Source of the DNA: Mesoaciditoga sp.
Lineage (GTDB): Bacteria > Thermotogota > Thermotogae > Mesoaciditogales > Mesoaciditogaceae
Reading direction: 5' to 3'
DNA length: 44,931 nt
Assembly (NCBI GenBank): GCA_015491995.1
Contig: WGFY01000026.1
Coordinates: 1-44,931 of the forward strand
In this document: positions 6,109-35,525 of the stretch, piece by piece
Layout of the letters: every line of letters begins with the position of its first letter
Numbering within the stretch: position 1 is the stretch's first letter
The notes under the pieces: generated by a model
Databases searched by the model: none
Told to the model about the DNA's origin: nothing
Seen by the model: the letters and a program-made list of their open reading frames with translations, nothing else
Translations under genes and position numbers: made by a program

Positions 6109-8343
6109 ATGAAAAGAAAAATTTTCCTTCTGTTCATATTGACACTCGTGAGTGGCGTAATGGTTTCATCTGTGTTAGCGATGTCGGTGGACCAAAACGG
6201 TGTGGATATGCTTATGGGGGCAAAGAATGCATTGCAGTTATACAAACAATATGGTGACACTTCTGGGGTGTCCAACGTCGTATCCAAACTTGAGCTTTTC
6301 CTTTCCAAGTACACGGAACCGGCTCAATACATTGGCCAAGCTTATGAGTTGCTTGGAGATGCTTATTATCTTTTGAACAATTACAAGCGCGCTATAAACG
6401 AGTACAAAAAAGCTTTGGAATACCTTCCAAAAAGTTCCATTGATAATGAGTACACGGTTTACTCTCTTGGATATGCCTACATGAGTATCGGTGATAATTC
6501 AAATGCTATTTCTTATTTTTCTTCTCTTTACAACTCTCCAAAATATGCTGATGAGGTAAGGGTACTTGTGGGAAGTATATACGTGAAGATCGGCAAGTAT
6601 ACCGATGCTGAAAAAGTGCTTGGTGAAGTTAAAACCAACGTTTGGAAAGCCTGGGCGGTGTTTTACAAAGGGAAAATAGCTTTTAACACCAAAAATTACA
6701 AAGGGGCCCATGAACTTTTTGCAAGTGTGGCAAATTATTCAAACGATCCAAATGTCATAGAACCAGCCGCTTATTACGATGCCTACTCTTTCCTGAATTT
6801 GAACGATATTCAAAATGCTATGAAAGTTTCTGGCGAAGCCATTAAAAATTACCCACCCACGATATGGAGTGTTGATCTTTACACGATACTTGGGGAATCT
6901 TATTACAGAAATGGTCAATACACAAAGGCTCTTGAAGCGTTTCAAAATGCCATTCAGCTTGCCCCTAATGCTGGCAAACTGTATAAAGCACTCAACGCAA
7001 AAGCCTGGGCCGAGTACAAACTCAAAAAATATGTTGATGCTATTGCTGATTGGAAAAAAGTTCTCGACAAATCAATGGACTCGGGGCTGGCGCTTTCCGC
7101 TGGCTTAAGTGCTGGTGCCACATATAGGGAACTTAAAGACTTCAGTGAAGCTTTGAAACTTTACAAATACATGGAGCCTAAATTCACTTCCCAAAAGAAT
7201 CAAATAGTTCTGCAAGAGGGAAAAACCTATCTGGAGTCGGGGAAATACACGCAGGCAGCTCAGACGTTTGAAAAGCTTTCTGAACTGGTGGATCCTATAA
7301 GCGATTCTGCATCTTATTGGCTTGGCTATACTTATAATGTCGAGGGTAAATACGAAAAGTCTTTAAATACTTTGAGCAAACTTGTGACGAAGACAAAAGA
7401 TCCTAACATGGAGGCAAAATCTTACATGCTTGAAGGTGATATATACTTCAAGAGAAACGATCACAAAAATGCCCAGAGATCATATGAAAATGCCGTGGCA
7501 ATTGGCACGAAAGAAACAAAAAATGTTGCTGAGTATAACCTTGGTCTGATATATTACAACACGTCTGATTATTCCAAAGCACTCAATTACCTAAAAGACG
7601 TTATGAGTAACAGAGTTTTAGATCCGGATTTGGCTCTTAACGCCGCATACTATTTGAGCCAGTCTTACGTCAATTTGAAAAATTACAAATCCGCATTAGA
7701 TGTTTACAATTGGATAATCAAGTACGATTTTGAAGGGCTGTACACCTCTTCCGTTTATGTTTTGAAAGCGGTTGCCATTGAAAAACTCGGTGAATACACT
7801 CAGATTCCACCCTATGTGGATAAAGTTTTAAGTACTTTAACCAACATTTCAAGCAAAAACGATCTTCTTTTTTACAAAGCATATGCTTATTTTAAAAGCG
7901 GGGATCTTAAAAATGCTCATGCAATAGCTTCATCTCTACTTAGCAAAAAGATGTCAAATGATGCGATGGGCGGGATTTTGTACATTGAAGGAAAATATTA
8001 TCAATCCCAAAACAACGCGACTGAAGCTGCAAAATACTTTAAAGAGGTGTATACGAATTATCCATCCAGTAGCGTTGCGCCAGATGCAGCTTATGAACTT
8101 GGCATGATGTATTACAGAATTGGAAAGTATGCAAATGCCAAAGAAGCATTTTTCAGTTTGGTTTCTCTTTTCGGTGGTGATTCACGAGTCCCAGAAGCAT
8201 TCTACTACATAGGCATGTCTTACGAGAATTTGGGTCAAAATTCTGCTGCCCTCCAAGTTTACAACACGATAATAGAGAAATTCCCAAATTCTGGTCAAGC
8301 TGCTTTGGCTAAGAAAAGGCTTTCTGAATTAGGAAAGCGGTGA
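6109..8343 (+). CDS. Secreted tetratricopeptide-repeat protein
   Basis: This 744-residue protein has a signal peptide (MKRKIFLLFILTLVSG, cleavage probably near residue 24, VLA-MS) followed by TPR-type helical pairs along almost the whole chain, from about residue 50 to the end. Repeats such as ELLGDAYYLLNNYKRAI and GESYYRNGQYTKALEAF show the G/A-Y-A-P spacing. It should therefore be a periplasmic scaffold. The start has AGGGAGTG upstream. The stop overlaps the start of the next gene, a predicted outer-membrane protein, which suggests the two work together, as BamD- or YbgF-like TPR proteins do with barrels. No enzyme motif is seen and no precise function is assigned. Confidence 0.75.
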   Translation: MKRKIFLLFILTLVSGVMVSSVLAMSVDQNGVDMLMGAKNALQLYKQYGDTSGVSNVVSKLELFLSKYTEPAQYIGQAYELLGDAYYLLNNYKRAINEYKKALEYLPKSSIDNEYTVYSLGYAYMSIGDNSNAISYFSSLYNSPKYADEVRVLVGSIYVKIGKYTDAEKVLGEVKTNVWKAWAVFYKGKIAFNTKNYKGAHELFASVANYSNDPNVIEPAAYYDAYSFLNLNDIQNAMKVSGEAIKNYPPTIWSVDLYTILGESYYRNGQYTKALEAFQNAIQLAPNAGKLYKALNAKAWAEYKLKKYVDAIADWKKVLDKSMDSGLALSAGLSAGATYRELKDFSEALKLYKYMEPKFTSQKNQIVLQEGKTYLESGKYTQAAQTFEKLSELVDPISDSASYWLGYTYNVEGKYEKSLNTLSKLVTKTKDPNMEAKSYMLEGDIYFKRNDHKNAQRSYENAVAIGTKETKNVAEYNLGLIYYNTSDYSKALNYLKDVMSNRVLDPDLALNAAYYLSQSYVNLKNYKSALDVYNWIIKYDFEGLYTSSVYVLKAVAIEKLGEYTQIPPYVDKVLSTLTNISSKNDLLFYKAYAYFKSGDLKNAHAIASSLLSKKMSNDAMGGILYIEGKYYQSQNNATEAAKYFKEVYTNYPSSSVAPDAAYELGMMYYRIGKYANAKEAFFSLVSLFGGDSRVPEAFYYIGMSYENLGQNSAALQVYNTIIEKFPNSGQAALAKKRLSELGKR

Positions 8344-28124: not shown

Positions 28125-29330
28125 ATGCCCACTTATGTGTTTGATGCTGTGAATCCAAGCGGTAAGATGGTAAAAGGGAAACTTGATGCCAACAACGAAA
28201 TGAACCTTATAAATAGATTATCCCAAGAGGGATACGTTGTGCTCAACGTTCAAGCTGTTGCAGAGAAAAGGAAAGGTATGAGACTACGTGCCAAATTGGG
28301 GGATTTGGTTTTGTTTACGCGCCAATTTTCAACCATGATAAACGCTGGTGTAAGGATAAAAGATTCCATCAACCTTTTGGCAAGGCAGGAAGCGTTCAGT
28401 AAAACTTTTAGAGATATTCTCTCAGAGGTTGTCTTATCCATTGATGGTGGCATGTCTCTTTCTGAAGCATTTGAAAAGGTTGGCGCATTTGATCCCGTGT
28501 TAATCAACCTCATGCAAGCGGGTGAGAGCGGCGGAGTTCTCGATGAGTCTCTTTCCAAATTATCGGCCTTTTATGAAAATTCGAAGAAGATCAGGGATGA
28601 AATACGTTCCGCTATGGCTTACCCTGTTTTCGTGTCCATCTTTGCCGTTTTGATATTAATGGTGATAAGTTTGTTTATACTTCCCAACCTTTTCAGGGCT
28701 TTTGGTAGCAAAAAACCTGGAGGTGTGGTCGCCATTCTCATAAACACGAACAATTATCTTGCGAATAATTGGATAGCAATCGTGATATTTTTGATAGGAT
28801 TCTTCATAGGAGGATATTTCTTCATGCGCACGCCATATGGAATGGCGACTAAGGGATTCATGCTTTCGCTCTTGCCTCCCATAAAAAAACTTAGACGTCT
28901 TGAAACTTCCTCAAGCTTCAGTAAAACTTTGGCCACTTTGATATCAAGTGGCGTTACAATCACTGAAGCCGTTAAAATGGCTGCCAATGCCACATCAGAT
29001 CATGAATTGATAAAATCGGTTCCTTCGATGATCGATACGCTTAAAAATGGTGGGACACTTAAAGAAGCCATGGGGAAATCCAAGTATTTCCCTCAATTGC
29101 TTGTGGAAATGGTTGGGACCGGTGAGGAAACTGGAAGAGTTGATGAGATGCTCAACAAAGTTGCGGAATTTTACGATCAAGAAGTATCAGTCAAATTAAA
29201 ACAAATAGTTTCCATGATCGAACCAGCCATGATAGGGGTTATAGGAATATTTGTTGGGTTCCTAACCTTCAGCCTTTATCAAACCATGTTCAGCCTTGAA
29301 AATGGGGCGGGGCAAGGATTTGGAAAATGA
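28125..29330 (+). CDS. pilC: Type IV pilus inner-membrane platform protein PilC
   Basis: PilC (type II secretion F family) is the inner-membrane platform on which the PilB/PilT ATPases drive pilin insertion or removal. The 401 residues show the N-terminal YVFDAVNPSGKMVKGKL, two GspF domains (about 65-190 with FTRQFSTMINAGVRIKDSI, and 265-390 with FSKTLATLISSGVTITEAV) and three membrane helices (165-190, 215-235, 365-390). GTGEETGRVDEML is a typical second-domain motif. It heads an operon that runs without visible terminators to the secretin. The PilB extension ATPase is not in the operon. Confidence 0.95.
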   Translation: MPTYVFDAVNPSGKMVKGKLDANNEMNLINRLSQEGYVVLNVQAVAEKRKGMRLRAKLGDLVLFTRQFSTMINAGVRIKDSINLLARQEAFSKTFRDILSEVVLSIDGGMSLSEAFEKVGAFDPVLINLMQAGESGGVLDESLSKLSAFYENSKKIRDEIRSAMAYPVFVSIFAVLILMVISLFILPNLFRAFGSKKPGGVVAILINTNNYLANNWIAIVIFLIGFFIGGYFFMRTPYGMATKGFMLSLLPPIKKLRRLETSSSFSKTLATLISSGVTITEAVKMAANATSDHELIKSVPSMIDTLKNGGTLKEAMGKSKYFPQLLVEMVGTGEETGRVDEMLNKVAEFYDQEVSVKLKQIVSMIEPAMIGVIGIFVGFLTFSLYQTMFSLENGAGQGFGK

Positions 29331-29737
29331 AGGCTGGTCATACCTTGATAGAGCTGCTTGTTTATATTGCTATTGTATCGTTGATTTTATCATTTGTATT
29401 TCCGATTTTCAACACGATGACCGAAAGAACCTTGTTATATGAAGATGTGAAAACCATGAAAAGCATGATAAGATATGCCCGTATCGTCTCTTATTTTAAA
29501 AATTGTAGGGTGGATGTATTTCTTGCCACAAAGCTTGTAAGGGTTATGCTTGGCAAAAGAACTCTTAAAGCTTACAAATTAAATGTGGATGTTAGAGGGG
29601 ACACACATTTCGCATTTTCAAATGGCGTGCCTTACATTTCTGGTGAAACGAAATTTTCAATTGAAGGTTCGTTACCAGTTATCTTAACTGTTACTCCCGT
29701 GATTGGGAAAGTGAATGTGAGAAAATTGGAGTGGTGA
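29327..29737 (+). CDS. Type IV pilin-like (pseudopilin) protein
   Basis: This 136-residue protein has a class III prepilin signal: a short basic leader MKAG, then HTLIELLVYIAIVSLI. Prepilin peptidase should cut after Gly4, leaving His at +1 (usually Phe or Met) and the conserved Glu at +5, followed by a hydrophobic helix to about residue 28. The rest is a small beta-rich globular domain without cysteines. It is probably a minor pilin that helps prime assembly; the major pilin is not in the window. The ATG overlaps the pilC stop (ATGA). Confidence 0.85.
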   Translation: MKAGHTLIELLVYIAIVSLILSFVFPIFNTMTERTLLYEDVKTMKSMIRYARIVSYFKNCRVDVFLATKLVRVMLGKRTLKAYKLNVDVRGDTHFAFSNGVPYISGETKFSIEGSLPVILTVTPVIGKVNVRKLEW

Positions 29738-29738
29738 T

Positions 29739-30713
29739 ATGGGATTGTTCACGAGTTATTACGTTGGGATAGACATTGGAAGGTACGGAGCCAGTGGAGT
29801 GAAGTTGAAGATAAATGGAAAGAAAACGAAGTTGATCTCTTCAACTTCGATTCTTTACAGGAAAGAAGCATTCGATGGTGAAAATTTAAGCGATGAGAGT
29901 GAAATACTCCACGCTCTTGGAATGATCAAAGCCTCTTTGAAAATTAACATGGAGGATGTGATAGTTTCATCGCTTTTTCCAGACAGAATACTTTTTAGGA
30001 AAATAGAACTTCCCAAAATGCCTGAACAGCAGATTTCAAACGCCGCAAAATTCCAAATAGTGAAAGAGCTTTCAATTTCTCCAGATGAAATCACAGTTGA
30101 AGTGGATACAAGACAAAAAGTTCCTAACTTATTAGATGTTTCCGTGCTTGTCGTCAGGAATGAGGATATATCAAAATTCAACAGTTTGTTTTTCAAATCT
30201 AGCTTACCATTTCCGGATATTTTAGATGCAGGCTACTTCAAATTCGGATACATCTTAAAAGATGAGTTGTTCGAAGGAGTGACATTTGTGGTTTTTGAAG
30301 ATGTTGCTTCCACATACCTTGAACTTTTTAAAGACCGAGTGCTCATGGGGATCGACAACGTAATAGGTGGGTCGAAAGAGCTCTTGAAAGATGGGCAAAA
30401 CGCAAATTCACATTATCAAGAGCTTTCGGACAAGATTCAACGGCTTTCAAAGATGATGCTCTCAAGGTTTTCCATGTCAGATGCGGAGGTGGAACATTTC
30501 ATTTTCACATCGGAGATGGAAGAACACCTCGATGTATGGCACAACGTCTTGGGCAATTTTCAAATGGCCAAAGAAGTGCTTATGCATAGAGAGGCTTTCA
30601 ACATCAGTTTAGACGTCCCTTTGGGAGCATACAGTCTTGCGATAAGGGGGGTGACTGATAATTATAAAGATAAATTTCTACCGAAAAAAGGTAAGAAAAG
30701 TAAGACCGTTTAA
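29739..30713 (+). CDS. pilM: Type IV pilus assembly protein PilM
   Basis: PilM is the actin-like cytoplasmic ATPase-fold protein that binds the N-terminal tail of PilN. The 324 residues begin with YYVGIDIGRYGASGVKL (phosphate-1 loop of the actin fold). Later segments follow PilM: SSLFPDRILFRKIELPKMP and a region corresponding to the second ATP-binding subdomain (VIGGSKELLK). Start ATG at 29739 with GGAGTGGTGAT, one base after the pseudopilin stop. The 3' end contains the ribosome site and start of pilN in another frame (53-base overlap). Confidence 0.88.
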   Translation: MGLFTSYYVGIDIGRYGASGVKLKINGKKTKLISSTSILYRKEAFDGENLSDESEILHALGMIKASLKINMEDVIVSSLFPDRILFRKIELPKMPEQQISNAAKFQIVKELSISPDEITVEVDTRQKVPNLLDVSVLVVRNEDISKFNSLFFKSSLPFPDILDAGYFKFGYILKDELFEGVTFVVFEDVASTYLELFKDRVLMGIDNVIGGSKELLKDGQNANSHYQELSDKIQRLSKMMLSRFSMSDAEVEHFIFTSEMEEHLDVWHNVLGNFQMAKEVLMHREAFNISLDVPLGAYSLAIRGVTDNYKDKFLPKKGKKSKTV

Positions 30714-31239
30714 ATTTTTCATAGCCATGGCGATAATAGCTGGGATTGGCTTTTCTTTTTATTTTATAAGTACGAACATGATAGATGGTATTTACGAAAA
30801 TGCCCTTTCAGCGGATAAAAATCTCCTTTCTATTGCTGGAATACCATCTTTGGCTGGTTTGTCTAAGGGTGTGGTTCAATCGAAGATCGACGAACAGATA
30901 CAAAGATATCACAGCGTTTTGAACTCTAAATCACGAATTTTGTCTTACATGAAAGATTTCATAGAAGGTGTGGGAAAATTTCACTCGACCATTCAAGCTG
31001 TAAACAGTGTGTACAAAAAAATAGGTGGAAGAGTTTCTCTTTCTTACTTGCATTACAAGACAAAAAGTGCTTCCACTTTGCAGATGATTCAATTTATTCC
31101 TGAAGGCGATAATGTATTGGATTTGGAGAAGATGCTCTTTAAAAAGCTCGGCTATAAAATCCAAATGAATAAAGTCCAAACCTCCAACTGGTACAAAACT
31201 TCCAGCGAATTCGTTATGATTTCAAAAGGTGAATTATGA
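30661..31239 (+). CDS. pilN: Type IV pilus assembly protein PilN, apparently starting at ATT
   Basis: PilN is a bitopic inner-membrane protein: a short cytoplasmic tail binds PilM and the periplasmic domain pairs with PilO. Reading from ATT at 30661 gives MIKINFYRKKVRKVRPF, matching the usual PilN tail (MIxINLLPxR), then a membrane helix (FFIAMAIIAGIGFSFYF) and a periplasmic coiled-coil plus globular domain to residue 192. GGGGGTGA (about 30647-30654) sits six bases before ATT. The first ordinary start codon, ATG at 30727, would remove the tail and cut into the helix. ATA at 30658 is a second candidate. The function is confident; the exact initiation codon is inferred. Confidence 0.8.
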   Translation: MIKINFYRKKVRKVRPFKFFIAMAIIAGIGFSFYFISTNMIDGIYENALSADKNLLSIAGIPSLAGLSKGVVQSKIDEQIQRYHSVLNSKSRILSYMKDFIEGVGKFHSTIQAVNSVYKKIGGRVSLSYLHYKTKSASTLQMIQFIPEGDNVLDLEKMLFKKLGYKIQMNKVQTSNWYKTSSEFVMISKGEL

Positions 31240-31706
31240 ACAGAAAATTTGTGATATTTACGATACTAATGGCAATTGGTCTTATGATATCCTTTGATTT
31301 TGTCACCTTGTTTCTTCAATCAGGGAAACTTGAGAAGATAACCAAATCGATTCAGAAGTTCGATACTCTTTACTCTGAAAGCTTTAGAATGAATCAACAA
31401 CTTTCAACTTATTCAAAAAGGATCGAACTCAGTGAAGTGTCTCCTTCGCATCTCAAAAATGAGCTCTTGAAATCGGCCCCTTCCGCGAAGTTCAGTGTAT
31501 CGAGAGATACTGTAAAGCTTGAAAAACCTGTGGAAATTGACGTTGTCAAATTGTTGAACACGCTTTTGAAGTACACGAACGTGAATGTGGTTGAAATGTC
31601 GATAAAATCGATGATGCCAGTTAAATATGTAGGATTTGCATACAAAGGCACGCTCAAAGAGCACGTTACATTAGAGAATCTTGTTGTAAAAATTTACGGA
31701 GGATGA
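31236..31706 (+). CDS. PilO-like type IV pilus protein
   Basis: This 156-residue protein has one N-terminal membrane helix (FVIFTILMAIGLMISFDFVTLF), a coiled-coil segment (about 30-65) and a small alpha/beta domain (80-155). This is the PilO/GspM architecture, and the position directly after pilN (ATGA overlap, with AAAGGTGA upstream) matches the pilMNO order. Sequence similarity to well-studied PilO is low, so the name rests on architecture and order. Confidence 0.65.
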   Translation: MNRKFVIFTILMAIGLMISFDFVTLFLQSGKLEKITKSIQKFDTLYSESFRMNQQLSTYSKRIELSEVSPSHLKNELLKSAPSAKFSVSRDTVKLEKPVEIDVVKLLNTLLKYTNVNVVEMSIKSMMPVKYVGFAYKGTLKEHVTLENLVVKIYGG

Positions 31707-31707
31707 T

Positions 31708-32223
31708 ATGAAGAACAAGGCTGTTGTAGCAATACTTTTGATGGTTATAGTGGGGATGTTCTTGTGGGTTGGATACGTACTCTTTTTCCCTAAAACAACG
31801 ATGAACCGTAACGAATCACTTGGCACTCCATCTTTTCAAGTTGAAGCCGTACTTTCAAAGAAAGTTGTTATGGATCATATGAATCCTCTGAAAATTGAAG
31901 TAGATCCGTTTACACCGTTAGTTGTGAAGTTAAGCCAAGAGGATCTTGTCAATCTTTTGGAAGTTTCTTTATCGGATTCCAGCTTTGATAAAAATTTGAG
32001 ATACTTGAGTGGTGTTAAGGGGTATGGAGTGAACATGGTGACACTCTCTTTTGAAGGAAAGAAATCAACATTTGATTTCGGAAAAGCGAATACACGTTTT
32101 TCATGGGATGGAAAGAATTACGTGGTGGTGTACTTCAAACCAGAATTTGAAAGTGCTGTGATCATGGAACTTTCAAATGGAAAATTGTACACCGTTACAC
32201 CGCAAGGACTTATAATTAAGTGA
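31708..32223 (+). CDS. Pilus operon membrane-anchored protein in the PilP position
   Basis: This 171-residue protein has an N-terminal membrane helix (VVAILLMVIVGMFLWVGYVLFF), a linker, and a beta-rich C-terminal domain (about 70-171) ending SNGKLYTVTPQGLIIK. It lies between pilO-like and the secretin, where pilP (linking PilN/PilO to the secretin) is normally found, but it lacks the lipobox cysteine of PilP; the membrane helix makes it more like GspC. Family not recognised by sequence; role inferred from position. It ends overlapping a GTG just before the secretin. Confidence 0.6.
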   Translation: MKNKAVVAILLMVIVGMFLWVGYVLFFPKTTMNRNESLGTPSFQVEAVLSKKVVMDHMNPLKIEVDPFTPLVVKLSQEDLVNLLEVSLSDSSFDKNLRYLSGVKGYGVNMVTLSFEGKKSTFDFGKANTRFSWDGKNYVVVYFKPEFESAVIMELSNGKLYTVTPQGLIIK

Positions 32224-32240
32224 GTGGAGGGCGAGAAAAA

Positions 32241-35200
32241 ATGAGAAGAATTTTTATTTTTACCGCTTTAGTGCTAATTTCTTTTGCCGTTTTGGGGGCA
32301 ACACTTCAAAATTTGACTTTTTCGGCAACACAAGGTTTGTTTCAAGCCGAACTTGTTTTTGATTCATTTCCTTCTTACAGTTTAAAGAGCGTGCTTGGAA
32401 ATTCTCCCACTCTTACTTTTCAAGGCGAAGTGTCGCCAAAGGTTTCTAAAGAGATAGAATGGGGACCTGCAAAAGCCACCATCTCTTCCACTTCAAACCA
32501 AACAAAAGTCGAATTCAACTTTCCATTCATGGTTAGCGCTTTTGTTGGAGAAAAACTGAAGAAAGCAAACACTCGTACACTTGTCGTAAGCTTTGTAACA
32601 CTTGGCATTTCCCAGAGCTTGGCTTTAACTGGGACGGCTACAAAGATAAGCATAGATTTTTCCGGAGAGAAAGGCTCCACTCTTGGCCTTGCTATAAAGT
32701 ACCTTGCGCGCCTTTTGAAGAGAAATCTTGTTATAGATCCTCAAAGCGCTAAAAAACCCGTTAACATAACCCTTTCTGATGTAACGCCGTCTGAAGCTTT
32801 CTACGATGTTTTGATATCGTCACCAGGTATTGGATATGCTGTTCTTCCAGACGGGACGTATTACATAGCCGAGGCAAATTCGCTGGTAAAAGATCTCGGA
32901 AAGCTTGGTGTTGGAACGTACAACAACATCGTAAGCTTTTACGATCTGTCAACGACGAACGTTTCTTCTTCAACTTTTAATTCGCTTGTCGATAACCTAT
33001 TTGGAAATAACAGAGTCGTTGGTTACATCGGTTCTTACGCCATCGTCAAAGCTACAGATGAACAACAAAAAACCATTAAAAGCTTGATGAGTTTTCTCAA
33101 GGAGAGTGAAAGTTTTAAAACCGTGAAATGGTCTAATTTTGAAGCGGAGGCAGAACTCCAAAGGCTTGTGAACGAAATGTACCCTGAGGTGAAAATGATG
33201 TATTTGAAGAGTTTTTCATCGATAATCATGAGTGGGAACAAAATGGATTTGGAGAAAGCATCTGAAATTATTTCAAAATATTCTGAGATCCTTTCACATA
33301 GTGGTCCTAAAATATCCGTAACGTTCAACGTCCCTGTTCAAAATGTTCCCGCTTTCTTGCAATTTTCAAAAAAATTCTCGGCGGTAACATCATATGGTTC
33401 TCCATCGCAAAACGCATCAAATGCGATTTACATCGTTAATGGACCACAAAAACAGATGCAAGCGTTCGAAAAAACTGTAAAACTCATTGCCAGCACTCTT
33501 ACAACTGTAAAATCCAAGCCGTTACACTTCAACTTCGTTACATGGACAGATGAGAACTCAGTCGAAGATCTCCTTAAGATGATAAACATAATGTATTCAG
33601 ATGTGAAATCTGTTTACTTTCCATCGTTTGGACAAATACTCTTTTACGGTCAAAACAACAACGATGTCGATGATGCGGTGAATTTTGTTAAAAATAGAAA
33701 ACCTCTTCAAACTGTTGGAGTTAAAAAAACGACGATAACGGTGAAAATTTCATCGAAAAACCTCTCAACCGTAAACGCTTTCTTGAAAAGCGAATTTCCA
33801 ACGCTCTTCGGGACCGGCACTCTTGTAGGCACATCTGGAGTCGTTCCATATGTGGTGAGCGGTCCTGCCACAGATGTGAGCGCGTTTGTGAATTCGTTGA
33901 AAAATTCTGACCTTATCGTTGGCAAAACTCCAACGAAGATATCTAAAATAAGTGAGACAGTTTTTCTCAAGGAAGTACCATGGTCAGATGAAAAAAGCGC
34001 AGATGATATGCTGAATTTGCTGAAAATAAAATATCAAAACTTGAATGCAGAGTATCTAAAATCCCTTAAAGAGTTTGCGATTTACGGCTTAAACTCGGCG
34101 ATGATAGATGCCGCTTCAACTTTCATAACATCGCACTTGAAAATTCATGAATATGTAAAGGCTTTACCGATAACAACTGTTGTAAAGGTAGATGTCAACA
34201 ACTTCGAAACGGTTAAATCCATGGTGAACTCGAGAAACTTAACGTTCTATGGCCCTACAAAAGTTTCAACTGAATCAACCACACTTTTAATAGGAATTTC
34301 GGGCGTCGCATCTCAAGTGGAAGATATTGTGAATCTTATGAAAACAAGCGGCCTTGTGAAAACCCCGTCACCGATTGCCACTTCTTTAACGGTATCCACC
34401 ACACGTGTGCAAGTGGTCGTCGTGCGCGATGAGAAGATAAGCTGCGATGTGAAAGATTATCCACTTTCTTCTTTGATTCAAAGAGTTTACATGGCATTTG
34501 ATAAAAACGTCGTATTTACATCCCAATCACTTCCTGATGTGACTGTTAAGCTTTCAAAAGTAGGGCTTGATCAATTCAAGTACGCCTTATCAAATGCATA
34601 TGGTTTGAATTTTTCTGGAACTTCGCTTGTCATTGTGGAAAACAACAACACCGGTATAACAAAAGTTTACAAGACTAACGATAACATCGACAAGATAAAA
34701 TCAATGGTGGAGTTTATAGGGGCAAAAGCCTTCATAGTTCCGAATACGGGAATGATAGTTGTAAGTGGACTGTCCCCGGCGAAAGCAAAAGAATTGGACG
34801 ACATGGTAGCACCTCTCCTCGTTTCAAGAAAAGATGTCAATATAGAGGCTAAAATCGTGGACGTGAGTGGGAACAACAACTTGAGTAAAAAGTTTAAAAC
34901 CACCCTTATGACTCCGCAATTGATCTTCGACAACAATTTGAGCTTGAACTTCAATCTCTTAAACGCTTCGAACCTTCCCAAATTTTTGTCAAATTTGGGT
35001 GATCAAATCGTTTCTTCCAAAGCAAGTGTGAGTGCCGATCTTTCACAGACAAGTGGAAGCGCTTCTATTCTTTCATCACCGACGTTGACAACCCAAAGTG
35101 GAATCTCAGCCAACATATTGGTAGGCTCGAAATACCCCTACATGGTTACAACGACGGTAAATGGTCAGCAACAGCAGCAATTGAAATTTTTGGATACAGG

Positions 35201-35525
35201 CATACAGCTTACCATTTTGCCATTTGCCCTTCCGAATGGTCAAATTTCTTTAACCATCACAATTGAAGTAAGTGATGCTGATTGGGGGCATGCGGTGAAT
35301 GGAATTCCCGCGGTCAACACGCGTACCGCTTCAATGAAAGTCGTGATATCCAACGGTCAAACGATCATGATAGGAGGACTGACAAAACATTCCAGATCAC
35401 AAAATGTTACAAAAGTGCCGTTTCTTGGGAATTTACCTTTTATAGGTCAATTTTTCAGATCGACAAGCTTCCAGGATTCGACGTCAAATTTGGACATATT
35501 CATAACGGCAAAAGTGGAGGGATGA
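32241..35525 (+). CDS. pilQ: Type IV pilus secretin (PilQ-like) with triplicated internal module
   Basis: The secretin forms the outer-membrane gate through which the pilus passes. The 1094 residues contain a signal peptide (IFIFTALVLISFAVLGA), an AMIN-like beta domain (25-140), a STN/N0-like domain (about 150-215), then three tandem copies of a two-part module (about 293-705), a further N-domain region (about 720-865), and the C-terminal secretin barrel (870-1094) with SSPTLTTQSG, the NTRTASMKVV strand and IMIGGL near the end. The ATG at 32241 follows GGAGGGCGAG; the GTG at 32220 is upstream of that site. Most PilQ proteins are 700-900 residues, so the module repeat explains the extra size. 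Confidence 0.9.
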   Translation: MRRIFIFTALVLISFAVLGATLQNLTFSATQGLFQAELVFDSFPSYSLKSVLGNSPTLTFQGEVSPKVSKEIEWGPAKATISSTSNQTKVEFNFPFMVSAFVGEKLKKANTRTLVVSFVTLGISQSLALTGTATKISIDFSGEKGSTLGLAIKYLARLLKRNLVIDPQSAKKPVNITLSDVTPSEAFYDVLISSPGIGYAVLPDGTYYIAEANSLVKDLGKLGVGTYNNIVSFYDLSTTNVSSSTFNSLVDNLFGNNRVVGYIGSYAIVKATDEQQKTIKSLMSFLKESESFKTVKWSNFEAEAELQRLVNEMYPEVKMMYLKSFSSIIMSGNKMDLEKASEIISKYSEILSHSGPKISVTFNVPVQNVPAFLQFSKKFSAVTSYGSPSQNASNAIYIVNGPQKQMQAFEKTVKLIASTLTTVKSKPLHFNFVTWTDENSVEDLLKMINIMYSDVKSVYFPSFGQILFYGQNNNDVDDAVNFVKNRKPLQTVGVKKTTITVKISSKNLSTVNAFLKSEFPTLFGTGTLVGTSGVVPYVVSGPATDVSAFVNSLKNSDLIVGKTPTKISKISETVFLKEVPWSDEKSADDMLNLLKIKYQNLNAEYLKSLKEFAIYGLNSAMIDAASTFITSHLKIHEYVKALPITTVVKVDVNNFETVKSMVNSRNLTFYGPTKVSTESTTLLIGISGVASQVEDIVNLMKTSGLVKTPSPIATSLTVSTTRVQVVVVRDEKISCDVKDYPLSSLIQRVYMAFDKNVVFTSQSLPDVTVKLSKVGLDQFKYALSNAYGLNFSGTSLVIVENNNTGITKVYKTNDNIDKIKSMVEFIGAKAFIVPNTGMIVVSGLSPAKAKELDDMVAPLLVSRKDVNIEAKIVDVSGNNNLSKKFKTTLMTPQLIFDNNLSLNFNLLNASNLPKFLSNLGDQIVSSKASVSADLSQTSGSASILSSPTLTTQSGISANILVGSKYPYMVTTTVNGQQQQQLKFLDTGIQLTILPFALPNGQISLTITIEVSDADWGHAVNGIPAVNTRTASMKVVISNGQTIMIGGLTKHSRSQNVTKVPFLGNLPFIGQFFRSTSFQDSTSNLDIFITAKVEG
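33117..34350 (+). repeat. Threefold internal repeat in the secretin gene
   Basis: Three copies of an A-B unit, about 136-148 codons each. A units begin near 33117, 33525 and 33960 and share V-x-W(T/S)D/NFE, a Y-x2-V/L, a following Y-x-K/P-S, and a G before an alanine-rich helix. B units begin near 33306, 33726 and 34170 and share a beta-rich start, F/V-x3-S and a SGP/NGP/SGV turn. Copies are diverged at protein level and are not visible as DNA repeats, so the duplication is old. Confidence 0.65.

Follow-up and report, generated by a model that had tools for sequence, protein, structure and literature searches.

A tandem repeat of paired domains with a predicted N1-type fold in the pilus secretin of Mesoaciditoga and the lengths of its orthologues in Thermotogota

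The secretin encoded on a contig of Mesoaciditoga sp. (WGFY01000026.1 of assembly GCA_015491995.1; its 44,931 nucleotides are referred to as the window) contains three tandem A-B units of about 140 residues each, at residues 297–714, whose alignment scores exceed those of all shuffled controls. Together with this repeat and its dimeric register, we observed a pilus-type operon, a recurrent predicted secondary structure of the modules, gains and losses of whole modules among orthologues, and a correlation between secretin length and the length of envelope spacer rods. The most probable explanation is that the protein is a pilus secretin (PilQ) whose periplasmic stack has grown by tandem A-B duplication, with a copy number tuned to the distance between outer membrane and cell.

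The secretin gene and its operon

The gene occupies 32220..35525 on the plus strand, as do all features of the window given below, and encodes a PilQ-type secretin of 1101 residues. Its identification as a secretin, made in a preliminary description of the window, is borne out by the barrel/gate domain at residues 943–1099 (35046..35516), which matches Secretin PF00263 with E=1.5e-42 and 145.5 bits against a cut-off of 27.5 and belongs to the Secretin superfamily. The best NCBIfam model was TIGR02515 (PilQ), with 123 bits below its curated cut-off of 284; the protein is PilQ-like by gene context, without certification by the PilQ model. Translation probably starts at Met 8 (32241), and a signal peptide is predicted at about residues 8–27. 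The N-terminal beta-sandwich domain (residues 28–131, 32301..32612; strands in the AlphaFold model at a pLDDT of about 75–83) is AMIN-like by its position and all-beta prediction; AMIN gave no Pfam match in this secretin. It is followed by a putative N0-like domain (residues 140–222, 32637..32885), which is well conserved among nine family members and modelled with low confidence, and then, ahead of the repeats, by a possible N1 domain (residues 228–294, 32901..33101), suggested by conservation and modelled at a pLDDT <50. Downstream of the repeats lie a second N0/STN-like domain (residues 730–808, 34407..34643), with the predicted order beta-beta-alpha-beta-beta-alpha-beta-beta, and the last N domain, at the N3 position (residues 810–872, 34647..34835), both conserved across the phylum.

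Upstream of the secretin gene are genes for a PilC/GspF inner-membrane platform protein (28125..29330; T2SSF PF00482, E=5.5e-57), a pilin-like protein with a prepilin methylation motif (29327..29737; N_methyl PF07963, E=2.5e-5), and PilM (29739..30713), the latter assigned by its operon position and a match to TIGR01175 below the cut-off (E=2.6e-4). Candidates for PilN (30727..31239), PilO (31236..31706), and PilP (31708..32223) were placed by position only, with no family match for PilO and no meaningful one for PilN and PilP. With PilC, pilin, and PilM recognised, the gene order fits pilC-pilin-pilM-N-O-P-Q, and this pilC-to-pilQ operon and the same downstream gene are common to Mesoaciditoga, Mesotoga-like, and Kosmotoga-like genomes. 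The assembly ATPase and competence channel of a PilQ system are likewise encoded in the Mesoaciditoga genome, as a PilB-type ATPase (C14; T2SSE, E=1.9e-130) and ComEC (C74; E=4.2e-40). Assignment of the secretin to type II secretion instead is very improbable: the score of the GspD model TIGR02517 (116 bits) is close to that of the PilQ model, but a pilM-type gene, the pilMNOPQ order, and ComEC argue for a pilus, and TM0088, its orthologue in Thermotoga, appears as pilQ in PMC5637354.

The window also contains the C-terminal part of a T2SSE-type ATPase (PilT/PilB-like) at 29–610, truncated at the contig edge. Two further, short secretins occur in the same genome (L002, 1483–2640, 385 aa; L003, 620–1765, 381 aa); both consist of an STN-like N-terminus and a secretin domain, and each has as neighbours an STN-type protein and a large protein of periplasmic appearance. 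Short secretin-matching ORFs, mostly of about 385–434 aa, were found across Thermotogota.

A threefold repeat of A-B modules

The preliminary description had proposed three copies of a two-part periplasmic module at 33117–34350, which corresponds to residues 300–711 of the ORF. Residues 293–712 were split into three units (U1 to U3) and compared by Smith-Waterman alignment with 1,000 shuffles per pair. Scores were 126 for U1-U2 (best shuffle 60), 157 for U2-U3 (best shuffle 68), and 67 for U1-U3 (best shuffle 66). The six modules, whose slightly refined boundaries were drawn by eye from the alignment, are A1 (residues 297–360, 33108..33299), B1 (361–430, 33300..33509), A2 (431–498, 33510..33713), B2 (499–570, 33714..33929), A3 (571–647, 33930..34160), and B3 (648–714, 34161..34361). 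Profiles for each module position were built from sub-alignments of the nine family members and compared with hhalign. The A modules matched one another with probabilities of 98.8% (A1-A2), 98.0% (A2-A3), and 96.3% (A1-A3), and the B modules with 97.4% (B2-B3), 89.7% (B1-B2), and 21.9% (B1-B3), while all A-B pairs among the six modules remained <5%. As A profiles match A and B profiles match B but never each other, the repeat is an A-B dimer present three times, and the proposed two-part unit thus stands; what suggests a kinship of A and B is their common predicted fold.

An AlphaFold model (eight sequences) displayed the order beta-alpha-beta-beta-alpha in all six modules. This is the order of N1/Secretin_N domains and, at the level of prediction, agrees with the earlier proposal of N1-type, KH-like modules; it was also predicted for four modules of a giant orthologue described below. 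The model as a whole is weak (mean pLDDT 57.6, pTM 0.26), and we therefore used its secondary structure and set the arrangement of the modules aside. Its top Foldseek match was Deinococcus 8co1 (E 9.2e-12). In sequence searches, Secretin_N PF03958 stayed below threshold in the Mesoaciditoga secretin (11.9 bits against a cut-off of 28.2) and exceeded it in a giant orthologue (34.9 bits). The Mesoaciditoga A profile matched the profile of the giant modules with a probability of 84%, the B profile with 28%.

Secretin length and spacer rods in Thermotogota

The secretin search covered 103 Thermotogota genomes, in which pilus secretin orthologues range from 944 to 4,575 residues. The relatives that carry names belong to Mesoaciditogaceae and comprise Athalassotoga saccharophila and Mesoaciditoga MAGs. 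In this family about 1,100 aa are usual, except in the sister genus, the Athalassotoga group (G008–G010, including A. saccharophila), with 944–949 aa; here a single alignment gap at about residues 508–645 (B2 and A3) removes exactly one A-B period. Secretins of most other families have 1,190–1,620 aa. Giant secretins, encoded by uninterrupted ORFs, occur in a family that is presumably Kosmotogaceae, with 2,635 aa in one genome (G018) and 3,900–4,575 aa in five others (G022, G024, G027–G029). The giant genes sit between the gene in the PilP position and the same downstream gene as in Mesoaciditoga. A module HMM gave 23, 39, and 50 matches in L035, L048, and L047, respectively (E at or below 1e-3), with a spacing of mostly about 66 aa that is near-constant over thousands of residues, and L047 is longer than L048 by blocks of 267, 262, and 133 aa, equal to 4, 4, and 2 modules. 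A phylum-wide module HMM built by iteration lost positions (from 47 to 43) and undercounts modules in ordinary-length secretins; therefore, secretin lengths were used in place of module counts. Overlapping windows made the module alignment collapse onto identical residues, and non-overlapping four-module blocks took their place. Between two Mesotoga-like genomes, dN/dS was 0.096 for the whole giant gene and 0.11 for the modules, and this purifying selection indicates that the giants are maintained proteins. For a four-module piece of a giant, four beta-alpha-beta-beta-alpha domains were predicted (pLDDT 74), and secretin N domains were among the best Foldseek matches (6i1x, 8co1, 5mp2).

Some further details were noted. 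The array of L047 contains 329 bp at 100% DNA identity (ORF nucleotides 6481–6809 and 7285–7613), which would reflect a very recent duplication or gene conversion. In Kosmotoga pacifica (L038, G020), a module array of about 1 kb lies on the opposite strand at about 4.4–5.5 kb, flanked by plus-strand module arrays in two frames; the stretch is either inverted internally or misassembled in this 454/Illumina genome. An uncultured member of the Myxococcales carries a PilQ-like ORF of 2,478 aa (L113, 3065–10498); AMIN lies close to its N-terminus, and its long central part has no Pfam assignment.

The toga of T. maritima is kept at a distance of about 50 nm by a coiled coil of 316 residues in OmpA1 (PMC3387000). 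SLH proteins were found in 99 of the 103 genomes, with a periodicity of about 3.5 residues in most examples checked, and we compared secretin ORF lengths with the ORF lengths of SLH coiled-coil spacers (OmpA/Omp-alpha). These rod lengths are proxies, hand-transcribed from stop-to-stop ORFs with several paralogues per genome. The comparison excluded genomes in which the secretin contig was truncated, Petrotogaceae (their secretin is only distantly related), and SLH proteins >800 aa (fused proteins of about 1,000 aa in Fervidobacteriaceae and one 864-aa protein); 688–700-aa SLH proteins of Mesotoga, one of which was examined and had no clear heptads, were kept in the Spearman analysis and dropped in the contrasts. 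Several choices of paralogues and exclusions followed sight of the lengths. In one Fervidobacteriaceae-like genus (G066–G072, G074), SLH proteins of about 980–1,140 aa far exceed its other SLH proteins.

The comparison of secretin length with envelope width suggested in the preliminary description, run here with rod length as proxy, could have failed and gave a positive correlation. Across 22 genera, Spearman coefficients were 0.86, 0.79, and 0.69 for the longest, mean, and shortest paralogue, and 0.84, 0.74, and 0.63 without the giants, so the strength varies with the paralogue chosen. Centring by family gave 0.91 (mean paralogue, n=18 genera, no giants). P values are optimistic where genera count as independent; phylogenetic contrasts, which are fairer and here used a tree built from the secretin domain itself, gave r of 0.43–0.56 (p 0.003 to 6e-5) with or without giants. 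PilM, encoded in the same operon, served as a control, limited to 14 genomes because it diverges quickly. It has 314–388 aa (about 20% variation) and its length rose weakly with that of the rods (rho 0.50, p=0.07, or 0.25 when the giants were omitted). TamB, considered as another ruler across the periplasm, was set aside: PF04357 matched in none of the 103 Thermotogota genomes, while being present in the Thermus and Deinobacterium controls, and thus provided no positive control.

The slope within families implies about 5 nm per 66-aa module, a rise that makes a ruler-like ring stack plausible and would be of the order expected from Thermus PilQ. The earlier suggestion that a longer stack spans the wide toga periplasm is retained in part. 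Secretin length rises with rod length across the 22 genera, within families, and in contrasts, but the Mesoaciditoga secretin lies at the short end of the phylum and its rods are short (312 and 345 aa, where the presumed Thermotoga genus has about 408), and Mesoaciditoga is therefore not exceptional for a wide toga. At the other end, the Kosmotoga/Mesotoga giants overshoot the rod-length trend about 2–3 times. The presumed Kosmotoga combines a giant secretin with ordinary rods (430 and 474 aa), and where OmpA reaches about 570–590 aa the implied coil is about 70 nm, whereas a stack of about 50 rings, each of several nm, would be longer than 100 nm. The giants are thus too long for one ring per module across the gap set by the rods; either their toga has ballooned and the stack traverses it, or a module does not correspond to one added ring.

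Explanations and known systems

In the explanation we favour, tandem duplication of A-B pairs of ring-building domains (N1/Secretin_N type) would have lengthened the periplasmic part of PilQ, and in the oligomer each module would most likely contribute one ring. Stacked end to end, the rings would determine the inward reach of the channel, from the outer membrane to the PilMNO(P) platform, and their number may have evolved to fit the distance between outer membrane and cell that is held by the SLH coiled-coil rods, with span as the putative selected function. The correlation of lengths is not proof of this mechanism, and stacking is putative, as pTM values of 0.26 and 0.40 give no confidence to the relative placement of modules. 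We also counted against it that two other secretins of the same genome have only about 385 aa.

Alternatively, the N1-type modules might add no rings end to end; they could be a tether, flexible or folded back on itself, or a sleeve with binding sites for partners (peptidoglycan, pilin, or DNA, for example), and unequal recombination would let copy number drift neutrally. Nucleic-acid binding is a known ability of KH-like folds elsewhere, the linkers between modules have low confidence in the models, the giants exceed what the rods call for, and copy number is readily altered, as the identical 329-bp stretches in one array illustrate. We nevertheless regard such a tether or sleeve as unlikely in view of the correlation with rod length within families and in contrasts, the purifying selection on the modules in the two Mesotoga-like genomes, and the near-constant module spacing. 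Less likely still, the correlation could be a by-product of lineages that generally lengthen repetitive envelope proteins, without functional coupling. Coiled coils and secretin arrays are both repetitive, Kosmotogaceae secretins are larger than needed, and PilM has a weak positive trend; however, the non-repetitive PilM varies little, and the giant secretin beside ordinary rods in the presumed Kosmotoga argues against a single common force of expansion. Tuning of an A-B stack to the envelope remains the preferred reading. Its boldest extension, in which Thermotogota pilus secretins are molecular rulers with a number of rings that follows the spacing of the envelope, and those of Kosmotogaceae form tubes of some 40–50 stacked rings, well over 100 nm long, that cross the ballooned toga periplasm, appears doubtful to us, with a likelihood between those of the two alternatives just described.

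Thermotogota offer a natural series for asking how trans-envelope machines are adjusted to the width of the periplasm: one orthologous channel lengthens domain by domain, alongside a spacer rod that can be measured, and tomography could put the ruler idea to a direct test. As far as our searches of open-access literature reach, the dimeric A-B repeat, the series of orthologues (944 to 4,575 aa), and the correlation with rods are new, and we found no description there of the Mesotoga-like secretins of 3,900–4,575 aa, five to six times the length of Thermus PilQ.

Among known systems, the type II secretins GspD/XcpQ (6i1x, 5mp2), with the layout N0-N1-N2-N3, share the ring-building fold of N1, N2, and N3; they have three N1-type domains and are much shorter. 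DR_0774 of Deinococcus radiodurans (8co1), the top structural match, likewise combines several N domains with a wide envelope, but it has 740 aa and its sequence matches in the secretin region only (phmmer E=9.4e-6, residues 938–1098). TM0088 of Thermotoga maritima and the other Thermotogota pilQ products are orthologues by homology, with operon position compared for Kosmotogaceae; they differ in module number, and the A-B register is established for Mesoaciditogaceae. A close parallel is PilQ of Thermus thermophilus, a secretin of type IV pili and DNA uptake with 757 aa and six stacked rings, N0–N5 (PMC5745081, PMC4463427), that form with the barrel a channel of about 35 nm (PMC4463427). Its rings N1–N5 have the beta-alpha-beta-beta-alpha order, and it is described as crossing most of a wide periplasm (PMC5745081), which its extra N-type domains are proposed to bridge. 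Since secretins with extra rings are thus already known, those of Thermotogota are a variant rather than a new kind. The five N1-type rings of Thermus PilQ (PMC5745081), for which no dimeric A-B repeat is reported, compare with six repeat modules plus other N domains in Mesoaciditoga, confirming the excess of modules claimed in the preliminary description, and with up to about 50 modules in its Kosmotogaceae relatives.
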